38,512 bases of DNA from an uncultured Spartobacteria bacterium (lineage in GTDB: Bacteria > Verrucomicrobiota > Verrucomicrobiia > Chthoniobacterales > Chthoniobacteraceae). The notes below the pieces were generated by a model, which made no database searches, was not told the DNA's origin, and saw only the letters and a program-made list of their open reading frames with translations. A program made the translations under genes and the position numbers. The number at the start of each line of letters is the position of its first letter. Position 1 is the stretch's first letter. The stretch is from positions 1 to 38,512 of the forward strand of contig CAIXGS010000049.1 in assembly GCA_903919125.1 (NCBI GenBank), written 5' to 3'. Below, piece after piece: positions 11 through 38,512 of the stretch.

Positions 11-376
11 TTCCGCCCCTTCAGGGCGGGAATCATTATGCCGATGGAATCCAGGGCGTTGCCCTGGGCTATCGCAGATCGCCCCATTGGGGCTTCACCG
101 GATACGTTGCTCGTTTGGGGCGTTGCCCTGGGCAATCGCATTTCGCCCCGTTGGGACGATGGCTTTGCGTCTCGTTGGGACGATGGCTTTGCGTCCAATT
201 GGTGCGGTGGTTTTGCGTCGCGTTGCGGCGATGGCTTTGCGTCCAATTGGGACGATGGCTTTGCGTCGCGTTGCGGCGATGAACCATGATTCCCCAGCCC
301 CAACGGGGCATCCTGTGAAAGCCCGGGGCAACGCCCTGGGAATGTCCCCCCACATATTTCCAAGCCCTGAAAGGGC
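11..376. repeat. REP-like palindromic cluster upstream of Y1 transposase
   Basis: GC-rich palindromes fill this stretch. A unit at 51-93 contains CCAGGGC-GTT-GCCCTGG (51-67) followed by GCCCC-ATT-GGGGC (81-93). A second direct copy, diverged, is at 115-157, exactly 64 bp away. An inverted copy is at 297-340, where GCCCC-AAC-GGGGC comes first and the GGCAACGCCCTGGG arm second. Further hairpins are at 11-31 (CCGCCC-CTTCA-GGGCGG) and 364-376 (GCCCT-GAA-AGGGC); the latter ends 8 nt before the transposase start codon. Paired inverted palindromes next to a single-strand (HUH) transposase are the hallmark of REP/RAYT arrangements. That the transposase acts on these repeats is inference. The longer open frames through this region are products of the repeat, not convincing genes. 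Confidence 0.7.
149..280. repeat. 24-bp tandem repeat, about 5.5 copies
   Basis: Units start at 149, 173, 197, 221, 245 and 269, with exact 24-bp spacing and no indels. The core of each unit is GGACGATGGCTTTGCGTC or a close variant. From 173 on there is a 48-bp higher-order period, because units beginning CGTTG alternate with units beginning AATTGG. Within a unit, GACG and CGTC can pair around ATGGCTTTG; in unit 2 the stem extends to TTGG/CCAA with one bulge. Since 24 is divisible by 3, several reading frames stay open, which explains spurious small ORFs here. It is embedded between the direct and inverted REP-like units. Function unknown. Confidence 0.85.
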
Positions 377-384
377 GTAACCGT

Positions 385-837
385 ATGCCGCAATCGCTCG
401 CCCAAATCCTTGTGCATCTGGTCTTCTCGACGAAGAACCGGGAGGCTTTGTTGGCCGATGATATCCGCGATGAACTCCACGCTTATATTGGCGGCATCGT
501 GGAGAATCAAAAAGGCATTCTGCTCAAAACGGGCTCGGTGTCCGATCATATCCACCTGCTCATTGCCCACCCAAGAACCTGTGCGCCATCAGAGTTGGTG
601 CAAGAGATCAAGACAGGCTCGTCGAAATGGCTGAAAACAAAGTCAGCTCACTATGCTCAGTTTTACTGGCAAGGCGGATACGGCATTTTCTCGGTCAGCC
701 CATCGCATCGCCCGGCGCTGGAAAATTACATTGGAAATCAGGCAGAGCATCACCGGGAGGTGACGTTTCAGGAGGAATACCGGCACTTGCTGCAAAAATA
801 CGGCATCGAATACGACGAAGGATATGTGTGGGATTGA
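385..837 (+). CDS. IS200/RAYT-type Y1 (HUH) transposase
   Basis: A 150-residue single-domain protein of the Y1_Tnp family, which cuts and rejoins single-stranded DNA through a tyrosine. The sequence begins with the typical IS200-like QILVHLVFSTKNRE. It has the metal-binding HUH motif H55-I-H57 in SDHIHLLI, the WQGGYGIFSVS segment around residues 95-104, and the predicted catalytic Tyr115 followed by Gln119 in NYIGNQAEHH. The length is normal for the family and the frame is intact, so it may be active. It stands alone without a TnpB partner, directly downstream of REP-like palindromes; a hairpin ends 8 nt before the ATG and could hamper translation. It could be a domesticated RAYT that mobilises the REPs or a plain IS200-like insertion; the sequence alone does not decide. 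Confidence 0.88.
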   Translation: MPQSLAQILVHLVFSTKNREALLADDIRDELHAYIGGIVENQKGILLKTGSVSDHIHLLIAHPRTCAPSELVQEIKTGSSKWLKTKSAHYAQFYWQGGYGIFSVSPSHRPALENYIGNQAEHHREVTFQEEYRHLLQKYGIEYDEGYVWD

Positions 838-1035: not shown

Positions 1036-4000
1036 ATGAGCCTCACCGAATCCATCGTTGAAGCAGCCTCACTCGAATGGTTCGGGGAGCTGGGGTACGC
1101 CCTCACCCCGGCCCTCTCCCAAGATGAGAGGGAGTCGTTTGGAGACGTGGTCCTGTTGGGACGTTTGCGGTCGGCGATTCGTCGGTTGAACACAGCGATT
1201 CCAGAAGAAGCGCGGGAAGACGCACTCCGGAAAGTGCTCCGCGTGGCGACGCCTTCTTTGATCCAAACGAACCGGACTTTCCACCGGATGCTCCGGAATG
1301 GCGTGGATGTGGAATACCCGAGGCCGGATGGTTCGATTAAAGGCGACAAGGTGCGGTTGGTGGATTTTGCGGAGGTGAACGGGAACGATTGGCTGGCGGT
1401 GAACCAGTTCACGGTTGTGGAAAACCAGCACAACCGCAGGCCGGACGTCGTCGTTTTCGTGAACGGACTTCCGTTGGCACTCATCGAACTCAAGAACGCG
1501 GCCGACGAAGACGCCACAATCTGGAGCGCGTATTCGCAGCTTCAGACTTACAAAGCCGAGGTACCTTCCCTCCTCGCGTACAACGCGGCACTGGTGGTTT
1601 CGGACGGTTTGGAAGCACGGATCGGTTCGCTGACGGCGAATCAAGAGTGGTTCAAGGTTTGGCGTACAGTGGACGGCGTAAGTGACTCGCCCAAAACGGC
1701 GTTGGAGCTGGAGGTGCTGGTGCGTGGTGTGTTTGAGCGGCAGCGGTTCCTGGATCTGCTCCAGCATTTTATCGTTTTTGAAGAAGACCCGGATTCGGGG
1801 GCGATTCACAAGATCATCGCGGGTTATCACCAATTCCACGCAGTGAACGCTGCGGTTGAAGAAACGGTTCGGGCCAGCGGGCTGACCGAAACGGGCGTTT
1901 ACGACGAACAAGGCACGTATTGGGCGGGGCGAATGCACGGCGGAAAAGCGGGAGATCGACGGGCGGGAGTTGTCTGGCACACACAAGGAAGCGGGAAGAG
2001 TTTCACGATGTTGTTCTTTGCGGCTCGGGTCATTCGGGAAAGCGCGATGAAGAACCCAACGCTCGTTGTGTTGACCGACCGAAACGATCTTGATGACCAG
2101 CTTTTCGGGCAGTTCCAGCGGTGCAGCGATATTCTCGGACAAACTCCTGTGCAGGCTCCGAACCGCGACAAACTCCGCGAGCTTCTAGCCGTCGCAAGCG
2201 GCGGGGTTGTTTTTACAACCATCCAGAAGTTCCTTCCCGAAAAGGGAGCGGCTATGCCCGCACTGAGCGATCGGCGAAACATCATTGTGATCGCGGATGA
2301 AGCACACCGTTCCCAATACGACCTGATCGACGGACTTGCCCGGCACATGCGCGACGCGTTACCCAATGCCTCGTTTATTGGGTTTACGGGCACCCCGATT
2401 GAAAAGACCGACGCCAACACACGGGCGGTTTTCGGGGATTATATTTCGATTTACGACATCCAGCGAGCGGTTGCCGATAAGGCGACGGTGCCAATTTATT
2501 ACGAAAGCCGGATTGCGAAGCTGGGCTTAAACGCGAGCGAATTGCCGAAACTGGACGCCGAGTTTGAGGAAATCACAGAGGGCGAAGAGCAAACGAAGAA
2601 GGAGAAGCTCAAAACGAAATGGGCGACCTTGGAGGCGTTGGTGGGTGATCCCAAACGGATCGCGCTGATTGCGGCCGATTTGGTGAACCATTTTGAAAAA
2701 CGCGTCGAAGCGTTGGACGGCAAAGCGATGATGGTCTGTATGAGCCGCCGGATTTGCGTGGATTTGCACGAGGCGCTTATCAAGTTTCGTCCGGAATGGG
2801 CCAGCGCGAAGGACGACGATTCTGAAGCGGAAAAGGACCGTAATTGTGTGGCGAAAGTCATCATGACGGGCAGCGCCGAAGACGGCCCGGATTGGCAACC
2901 GCACATTCGTAACAAAGAAAAGCGCCGTAAGTTGGCGAACCGTTTTAAGGACAGCAAAGATCCGTTTCGTATCGTGATTGTGCGCGATATGTGGCTGACC
3001 GGTTTTGACGCGCCGTGTCTTCACACGATGTACGCTGACAAACCGATGCAGGGTCACGGGCTCATGCAGGCGATTGCGCGCGTGAACCGGGTCTTTCGGG
3101 ATAAACCGGGCGGGTTGGTGGTCGATTACCTCGGGCTCGCGGATCAACTCAAACACGCGCTCGCCAATTACACAGAGAGCGGCGGGAAAGGTGCACCGAC
3201 TTACGACACCAAACAGGCGATTGCCGTGATGTTGGAGAAACACGGAGTCGCGTGTGACATCCTGCACGGGTTCAACTGGGACAAGTGGACGACGGGAACA
3301 CCCACCCAACGACTTGGGCTGATTCCGGCCGGACAGCAACACATTTTGGAACAGGAAGACGGCAAGAAACGCTGGCTTCAGGTGGTCATGGAACTCTCCC
3401 GTGCGTTCGCCTTGTGCGCCGCCAGTGACGAAGCCACGGAGATTCGCGATGACGTGAGTTTCTTCCAGACGCTGCAAGCCGCGTTGAACAAACAGAGCGG
3501 TGAACGTCAGAAGTCTCCGGAGCAAATCGACGCAGCTGTGCGCCAACTGGTTTCCCGAGCGATCACGACTCACGGCGAGGTGATTGACGTGTTTAGCGCG
3601 GCGGGATTGGCGAAGCCGGACATTGGGATTTTGAGCGAACAGTTCCTTGCCGAAGTGCGCGGGCTCAAACACAAAAATGTCGCTGCCGAGTTGCTGGAGA
3701 AACTGTTGAAAGACGAACTCAAAGTGCGGGCGAAGAAGAACCTCGTGCAGAGTCAGGTGTTCTCCGAGAAGCTGAAAAAGACGTTGAATGCTTACCATAA
3801 CCGCGCCATTTCCACGATGCAGGTGTTGGAGGAGTTGATCAAACTTGCGAAAGAGATGGATGCCGCGACAAAACGAGGCGTGGACCTTGGACTCACCGAT
3901 GACGAGGTGGCTTTCTATGACGCGCTTGCCTCGAACGAATCGGCGGTGATTGCGATGGGCGACGATAAACTGCGAGTAATCGCGGCGGAGTTAATCACGC

Positions 4001-4173
4001 AGGTCCGGAAGAGCGTGACCATCGACTGGACTGTGCGTGAAGGGGCACGGGCGAAGATCCGGGTGATGGTGAAGCGGATTCTGAACAAGTACGGTTACCC
4101 GCCGGATTTGCAGGACGAAGCGGTCAAGACGGTGCTCCAGCAAGCGGAGTTGCTGTGTCAGGAATGGGCGTGA
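1036..4173 (+). CDS. hsdR: Type I restriction enzyme, R (translocase/nuclease) subunit
   Basis: 1045 residues, the normal size for HsdR, the subunit that translocates DNA with ATP and cleaves it in complex with HsdM and HsdS. The N-terminal nuclease core shows D137 in [10 protein letters not shown] followed by E151-L-K153 in LIELKNA, a PD-(D/E)xK pattern. The helicase part has Walker A HTQGSGKS (about 315-322), the DEAH box 421-424, motif III FTGTP (about 452) and motif [11 protein letters not shown] (about 676-684), then the C-terminal helical region. No hsdM or hsdS is visible: downstream lie unrelated convergent genes and upstream the repeats and transposase, so the partners are either left of the window or lost. 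Residues about 21-33 ([13 protein letters not shown]) are encoded by a REP-like palindrome that replaces the usual family sequence there. The frame is otherwise intact. Confidence 0.95.
1101..1134 (+). repeat. REP-like palindrome inside the hsdR coding region
   Basis: A CCTCACCCCGGCCCTCTC arm is followed by 7 nt and GAGAGGGAG. CCCTCTC (1112-1118) pairs perfectly with GAGAGGG (1126-1132). It encodes [12 protein letters not shown] in frame. This sequence type, translated as LTPALSQ(R/D)ERE, recurs in many bacterial genomes as a dispersed element. In HsdR the equivalent segment normally reads roughly as a GPD-I-AP stretch, so I infer insertion or conversion by the repeat without loss of frame. 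Confidence 0.65.
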
Positions 4174-37612: not shown

Positions 37613-37689
37613 GCACTCGTAGCTCAACTGGATAGAGCGCTGCCCTCCGAAGGCAGAGGTTATGGGTTCGACCCCCGTCGAGTGCACCA
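37613..37689 (+). tRNA. tRNA-Arg(CCG)
   Basis: Full cloverleaf: acceptor GCACTCG/CGAGTGC, D-arm GCTC/GAGC, anticodon arm CTGCC-CTCCGAA-GGCAG with anticodon CCG, T-arm ATGGG-TTCGACC-CCCGT with one wobble, discriminator A, and an encoded CCA (37687-37689). It stands alone, 244 bp before a toxin-antitoxin pair. Confidence 0.97.
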
Positions 37690-37933: not shown

Positions 37934-38182
37934 ATGAGTGCTTTCAGTGCAGTTCTTGCTCCCAGTTCCGATGGAACCCTGCATGTGCCGATTCCAGAAA
38001 ATTGGATTAAGCAGGGCGTAACAGCCGTTTTGATTAAGGCGGACATTGAACCACTTGGGGGCATAAACTTGAATCCTGAACAAAACAAAGCACTTAAAGG
38101 TTTCGGATGTCTTAGAGGCAAGGTCTCATTAGCACCGGACTTCGACGAACCGATTGCGGGCTTCAAAGAATACTCGGCGTAA
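37934..38182 (+). CDS. DUF2281-type antitoxin
   Basis: 82 residues. The C-terminal part GCLRGKVSLAPDFDEPIAGFKEYS is typical of DUF2281 antitoxins, whose acidic tail blocks the partner ribonuclease. The N-terminal half (GTLHVPIPENWIKQG) is less conserved and may dimerise or bind DNA. The stop TAA at 38180-38182 overlaps the expected start position of the PIN toxin. A type II module of the VapBC kind is clear from the order and overlap. Confidence 0.85.
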   Translation: MSAFSAVLAPSSDGTLHVPIPENWIKQGVTAVLIKADIEPLGGINLNPEQNKALKGFGCLRGKVSLAPDFDEPIAGFKEYSA

Positions 38183-38512
38183 GGCTTCTTCTTGATACCC
38201 ATGCTTTGCTGTGGTTTTGCGAGGGGCACGCATCTCTGAGCGATGCGGCTAAAAATGCCATTCAAAATCAGGACAATGAACGATTTGTCAGTTTGGCAAC
38301 GGCTTGGGAGGTGGCGATCAAAATTAGCCTCGGCAAACTTCAGCTCGGCATAGACTTCGACGTTCTCTTCTCTGACGTCTTGCACGCTAACGGGTTCAGC
38401 TTGCTTCCTCTAAAATTAGACCTCTATTCCCGGCTCATTTCGTTACCTCAGCATCATGGAGACCCATTTGACCGCGCCCTAATTGTGCAGGCTCAAATAG
38501 AGGAACTTCAGA
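38179..38512 (+). pseudogene. VapC-type PIN toxin, start codon altered, cut by window end
   Basis: The frame from 38179 reads VRLLLDTHALLWFCEG, then SLATAWEVAIKISLGKL, and HHGDPFDRALIVQAQ, the pattern of Sll0205-like PIN domain ribonucleases with acidic residues in LLDTH, WEVAIK and DPFDR. It is uninterrupted to the window end at about 111 residues, so only a few residues are missing. The first codon is GTA where GTG overlapping the antitoxin stop would be expected; no ATG, GTG or TTG lies shortly before the conserved LLLDTH. The nearest alternatives are ATA at 38170 or an internal TTG, which would remove the first catalytic Asp. Either it is silent or it uses a rare start; a sequencing error is possible. 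Confidence 0.7.

Follow-up and report, generated by a model that had tools for sequence, protein, structure and literature searches.

Inverted Hairpin Ends Beside a Y1 HUH Transposase Gene of a Spartobacteria Genome and Their Correspondence to the Acido-Lenti-1 (RF01687) Family

The Locus

The window, a stretch of 38,512 nucleotides, lies at the start (first base) of contig C49 of the source genome (4.34 Mb in 87 contigs). The reversed contig C3 overlaps positions 1–118 of the window exactly (118 bp) and contributes one further repeat unit, which indicates that the assembly broke inside a repeat. Across the C3/C49 junction, hsdM and hsdS (on C3) are followed by two units that form an inverted pair, then by a degenerate unit, a tandem array, another unit, a Y1 transposase gene and hsdR.

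In the full unit, hairpin A (AGCCCCAAnGGGGC) is joined to hairpin B (CCCAGGGCAACGCCCTGGG) by a linker that has (A/T)AG at its end, and about 20 nt separate B from hairpin C (GCCCTGAAAGGGC). It was searched for with R1, a covariance model of A-B built from the source genome. On the minus strand a three-hairpin unit occupies 13–94 (C 13–30, B 50–68, A 81–93; R1 match 50–94, 67.2 bits); it is the right half of the inverted pair, the left half of which is on contig C3. A degenerate A-B unit on the same strand (114–158; 24 bits, E 1.6e-5) overlaps at its end a 24-bp tandem array of 5.6 copies (147–281), found with Tandem Repeats Finder. On the plus strand follows the left-end unit of the transposase element (296–377; A 297–309, B 322–340, C 364–376; R1 match 296–340, 64.1 bits). 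Two copies in the same orientation and one inverted were what the initial annotation had described, and R1 recovered all three. The arms 51–94 and 296–339 are 84% complementary, the third hairpin is present for the units at 50–94 (13–30) and 296–340 (364–376), and folding of the two as DNA gave z-scores of −2.69 and −2.00, respectively. When the 38.5 kb were searched with R1 up to E 1, the only matches besides the three units were three fragments within them.

The gene at 385–837 (plus strand) encodes a Y1 HUH transposase of 150 amino acids of the TnpA-Y1 subclass 1.2 type (Pfam Y1_Tnp, 86 bits). His55 and His57 of the HUH motif (547–555) and the catalytic Tyr115 together with Gln119 in the YxxxQxxHH motif (727–741) are invariant in 34 aligned relatives, in agreement with the earlier statement that both motifs are intact. 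In relatives an inverted unit stands about 50 bp past the stop codon; here the corresponding stretch, 838–900, is empty both by R1 and by end comparison, there being no R1 match beyond 340 and an end-to-end score of 16, which is at the level of the controls. Downstream of the transposase gene lies hsdR (1036–4173).

Copies of the Unit in the Source Genome

R1 found 17 matches in the source genome, which reduce to about 15 copies after merging of two contig-end overlaps (C3/C49, 118 bp; C7/C12, 121 bp). Most are arranged as inverted pairs, five in number, with outer lengths of 184, 184, 184, 183 and 183 bp. The unit is thus not unique to the window, and the recurrence of the palindromes elsewhere in the genome, which the initial annotation had made the point to be checked by a genome-wide count, is confirmed. 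The transposase of the window is single copy, with no other close relative in the source genome. At the four other Y1_Tnp matches of this genome, which served as an internal control, there was no unit.

The A-B part of the unit corresponds, on the opposite strand, to Rfam family RF01687 (Acido-Lenti-1; 46 positions). RF01687 has 10 matches in the source genome, seven at or over the gathering score of 37 bits and three under it, the latter including both window units (29.3 bits each; 50–94 on the plus strand for the unit at 13–94, and the minus strand for that at 296–377). None of 14 control genomes gave a match to RF01687.

In the window units the bases in front of hairpin B are GATAG or GAAAG; in 23 unique ungapped units they are mostly A[TCA]AG. 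Pyrimidines prevail at position −3 ahead of the unit (97 of 111), and no fixed target site emerged from the bases preceding the units.

Gene and Unit in Other Genomes

Two sets of loci were compared. The named-genome set comprised 63 loci, of which seven that were partial or distant (L089, L091–L096) and six encoding fewer than 130 amino acids were removed, leaving 50. The phylum sample comprised 29 loci from 37 gene-bearing genomes of the phylum. With R1 matches counted up to E of about 0.001, a unit was present within 150 bp of the gene at 37 of the 50 loci (32 upstream, 32 downstream, 27 both) and at 16 of the 29. The density of units was 4.87 (named genomes) and 3.38 (phylum sample) hits per kb near the gene; farther than 800 bp away it was 0.07 and 0. 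Plus-strand units predominated upstream (28:7 and 11:4, respectively), minus-strand units downstream (27:10 and 12:2). At many loci 44 nt separate the unit from the start codon, and about 50 nt lie between the last codon and the inverted partner.

The ends were also compared with no unit sequence assumed, by aligning the 250 bp upstream of the gene with the reverse complement of the 250 bp downstream; 48 named-genome loci (two with short flanks were dropped) and 28 loci of the phylum sample (the flank of L121 being too short) entered this test, and 177 pairs taken 500–1250 bp out were the controls. A score above 24 was reached by 39 of the 48 and 23 of the 28 loci and by 4 of the 177 controls. 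These counts exceed those with R1, which indicates that many loci whose units have drifted past R1 keep inverted ends. By at least one of the two methods, 47 of 50 and 26 of 29 loci were positive; the remaining ones are L049, L063 and L085 in the first set and L124, L125 and L121 (the last judged by R1 alone) in the second. RF01687 matches above the cut-off flank the gene on both sides, inverted to each other, at L082 (Tannerellaceae; 58.9 and 53.3 bits), L047 and L065, and adjoin it at further loci.

At the level of whole genomes, the gene was scored as present at E 1e-20 or better, which selected 37 of the 48 genomes with any match among 194 genomes of the phylum; RF01687 was present in 43. 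Both occurred in 32 genomes, the gene only in 5, the unit only in 11 and neither in 146 (Fisher p 4e-22, uncorrected for kinship). RF01687 was found in each of 16 gene-bearing genomes probed individually, with 1 to 114 matches per genome. A profile search of the 11 unit-only genomes revealed gene remnants in two and nothing in nine, so the units can survive the disappearance of the enzyme. Quentin et al. (section 28 of PMC6006769) likewise suspect that genomes retaining REPs have lost the gene.

Two loci have peculiar arrangements. At L073 (Terriglobia SRVP_39) more than 10 A-B units are arrayed around one transposase gene, in a genome with 60 RF01687 matches. At L055, when compared with L053, the B hairpin of the right end runs on into left-end sequence, in the order B-C rather than B′-A′, as if a strand switch had occurred at the hairpin palindrome.

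The Transposase and Its Family

Quentin et al. (2018; PMC6006769) characterize subclass 1.2 of TnpA-Y1 by the signature DH[IV]H, WQ and Y---Q--HH, a length of about 148 amino acids and a conserved C-terminal domain, the subclass being distinct from IS200 TnpA yet a close relation of it; their table enters 'no' for REP, section 15 of their text has its members generally without typical terminal IS200 structures, and the members are mostly from Cyanobacteria and Bacteroidetes. The window protein has DHIH, WQ (in WQGGY) and YIGNQAEHH, and a C-terminal tail, FQ.EYR..L.KY...DERYVWD, that is conserved among its relatives; of 80 full-length proteins, 79 carry YxxxQxxHH. A quick tree puts 82 rows with this motif across a moderately supported branch (SH-aLRT 81) from six IS200/IS605-type rows (88), and sets the RayT of E. 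coli and another Y1 protein of the source genome apart (92). By motif, length and position in this tree, which held no published subclass 1.2 sequence, the window transposase fits subclass 1.2, and it shares the low copy number of that subclass. It differs in that the subclass was published without REP or IS ends, whereas inverted hairpin ends were found here in most relatives, and in that the relatives with ends are largely from Verrucomicrobiota and Planctomycetota. A collection of plasmids yielded a whole-protein match in two records only, both Bacteroidota plasmids (43%), the other matches being distant; a phage collection yielded two distant matches.

The protein exceeds the cut-off of the IS200 equivalog profile (66.2 bits; cut-off 55), and its AlphaFold2 model (pLDDT 87) has the TnpA proteins of IS608 and ISDra2 as nearest folds (Z about 16; VIA), E. 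coli TnpA-REP following at 10.9. With IS200/IS605 the present family has in common the HUH-Y1 fold, hairpin ends and a small single-gene element. Unlike in IS200/IS605, the YxxxQxxHH tail is present and the gene is low copy. The ends of IS608 are not known to be inverted copies of one another. A classical multi-copy IS200 was rejected as an identity on the one gene copy in the source genome.

The initial annotation had proposed a REP/RAYT system, and in its full form this would mean a domesticated RAYT maintaining its REPs. As far as the layout goes, the proposal stands. There is one transposase copy, units lie ahead of the gene, and dispersed inverted palindrome pairs outnumber the gene, some beside it, as in REPtrons; hairpin B is preceded by a short foot, (A/T)AG, that is reminiscent of the REP foot GT[AG]G, although the present units do not carry GT[AG]G itself. 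The family is another one. The REP-transposase model (REP_Tyr_transpos; cut-off 80 bits) gives 18.5 bits, the motif is YxxxQ instead of YxxxNP, the phylogeny that had been called for places the protein outside the class 2 rows, and tree and fold are both closer to the TnpA of IS200; on these grounds RAYT/TnpA-REP (class 2) was rejected. Moreover, each unit has three hairpins, and the gene of the relatives lies within a bounded element that has inverted ends on its two sides. A true REP/RAYT system is therefore unlikely.

The TIRYT elements (subclass 2.1 type) also combine a Y1 transposase with terminal inverted repeats, but their proteins are of the YxxxNP type and their TIR is GGGG[AT][CG]A[CG]. 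Repeats of the source genome that fit this TIR consensus, GGGGACAGACACTTT, cluster around several of its units (L009, L011, L012 and L138 on contigs C7, C12, C48 and C24); there are none in the window. A Y1 protein of the YVDLNP type is encoded elsewhere in the source genome (L017, contig C36).

Acido-Lenti-1 as RNA or DNA

RF01687 describes the same A-B double hairpin of 46 positions with the opposite strand convention. It is filed as an sRNA, whereas here it is interpreted as the end of a DNA element. If it were a functional small RNA that transposons merely carry along, the curation by Rfam as sRNA, the entry 'y' for RNA in Table 1 of Weinberg 2010 and the covariation would be explained: in an alignment of 137 distinct units, which was fitted to the structure, 12 of the 13 stem pairs have changed on both sides. 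The same covariation is, however, expected from DNA palindromes. On the RF01687 strand there is no preference for wobble pairs (18 G-U versus 30 A-C cells), a weak indication, given the structure-fitted alignment and the relatedness of the cells. For hairpin A, the unit strand shows 18 G-T versus 3 A-C cells, so that an RNA role on that strand is conceivable. Against a functional small RNA speak the inverted arrangement of the ends at a fixed distance from the transposase and the wide range of copy numbers given above, the copies often being inverted pairs. We regard this explanation as improbable.

That the units are nothing more than bidirectional terminators, or GC-rich hairpins arisen by chance, as their short, GC-rich stems and the unexceptional RNA fold of 296–400 (z −0.53) would allow, is hardly credible in view of the contrast in unit density near to and far from the gene, the lack of units at the four other Y1_Tnp places of the source genome, a sequence-specific match that extends past the stems, and the absence of RF01687 from the control genomes.

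Gene-less Copies and Traces of Mobility

The two gene copies L070 and L076 of one MAG share about 740 bp of similar sequence bounded by the ends of the element; outside the ends, across 6.4 kb, there is no likeness except short end-unit repeats. A comparison of the paralogues L067 and L074 gave unit-level matches only.

The Tannerellaceae genome G194 has 114 unit matches, many of them as inverted pairs of about 203 bp. Of 20 copies examined most end with AGTCC...GGACT, and the copies L153, L155, L159, L171 and L172 have unrelated flanks. For the copy at C96:2240–2408 of this genome, the two flanks were joined and compared with 40 relatives, of which 8 gave an uninterrupted match; seven of the eight junctions were aligned, and none contains an element. 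The spacers have diverged, that of the nearest relative (G212) being different and longer, and the comparison is thus one of presence and absence at a conserved gene pair rather than a base-exact empty site. Many of the 203-bp elements (L153–L172) are central in a longer shared palindrome, gatctttatctctta and its complement, which is either a nested insertion into another repeat or a longer form of the ends.

In genome G059, locus L193 has both ends and between them residues 1–26 of the enzyme joined directly to residues 118–150, with nothing in between. Such a form, judged from its sequence, is the expected step between a full element and a MITE. Gene-less copies with the same ends, of uniform length and dispersed over the genome, as MITEs are, were found as the five pairs of 183–184 bp in the source genome and as the pairs of about 203 bp in G194.

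The Proposed Element and Its Mechanism

From the anatomy of the unit, its fixed spacing from the gene, the adjacency of the two across phyla, their co-occurrence in genomes, the dispersed copies of uniform length, the presence and absence at one site and the deletion intermediate, we conclude with good confidence that the locus is a member, truncated at its right end, of a family of small single-stranded DNA transposons, that the gene-less inverted pairs are its MITEs, and that RF01687 represents the end hairpins A and B.

A complete element would be about 630–740 bp long and consist of an A-B-C unit, the gene for the subclass 1.2 Y1 HUH transposase of 150 amino acids, and an inverted C′-B′-A′ unit. 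The gene-less pairs of 183–184 bp (source genome) and about 203 bp (Tannerellaceae) would be the non-autonomous derivatives. On single-stranded DNA, probably that of the lagging strand, the enzyme would bind hairpin B together with the (A/T)AG foot on its 5′ side; this foot, which resembles the REP foot GT[AG]G, is the candidate guide. As in IS200/IS605, Tyr115 would cleave the strand, His55, His57 and Gln119 would hold the metal, and strand joining would paste the element. Hairpin C ends 8 nt ahead of the start codon of the transposase; it would limit translation of the transposase and may hide the ribosome site. By these analogies the element resembles IS200/IS605 in its putative action while also making REPIN-like inverted pairs. 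As its right end is missing, the window copy is predicted to be immobile by the usual route; it may act in trans on the approximately 15 units of the genome.

What the Correspondence Would Mean

We are inclined, with some reserve, to go further and to regard RF01687 not as an RNA family but as the hairpins at the ends of single-stranded DNA transposons of one widespread class, in which the two ends are mutually inverted; subclass 1.2, described as having no ends, would comprise the enzymes of this class, and its MITEs would seed inverted hairpins in at least four phyla. If so, the identical order of hairpins on either strand would permit strand-symmetric Y1 action, unlike in IS200/IS605. Two orphans would be paired, namely a transposase subclass published as having no palindromes of its own, and an 'sRNA' family that is curated but has no function assigned. 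The natural series of full element, internally deleted element, MITE and orphan units would lend itself to studying how single-stranded DNA transposons yield REP-like repeats.

The ends of subclass 1.2 and the identity of Acido-Lenti-1 appear to be new; a literature search, with subscription papers mostly outside its scope, found no paper that connects such repeats with subclass 1.2 or with RF01687/Acido-Lenti-1. Acido-Lenti-1 copies beside protease genes of Tannerella were suggested as possible regulators of these genes in a report of 2026 (PMC13298647), which found no evidence of mobile elements at that place. If the hairpins are transposon ends, these repeats at the protease genes would themselves be mobile DNA, and annotations would have to be corrected.

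Genomic Setting

The closest relatives of the window transposase (L034, L035, L037, L038, L040, L041, L042 and L044) are located inside related type I restriction-modification operons, in some in the gap between hsdS and hsdR, in others in that between hsdM and hsdS. Homologues of Hsd proteins were found at 10 of 92 loci tested. A type I restriction-modification cassette and its element may travel jointly between phyla; the phylum labels of lone MAG contigs (e.g., L037 and L044) are possible binning errors.

Near the other end of the window there is a tRNA-Arg (CCG) gene at 37613–37689, and just after it, at 37936–38512, inspection by eye suggests an antitoxin-like gene followed by a gene for a putative PIN-domain (VapC-like) toxin.
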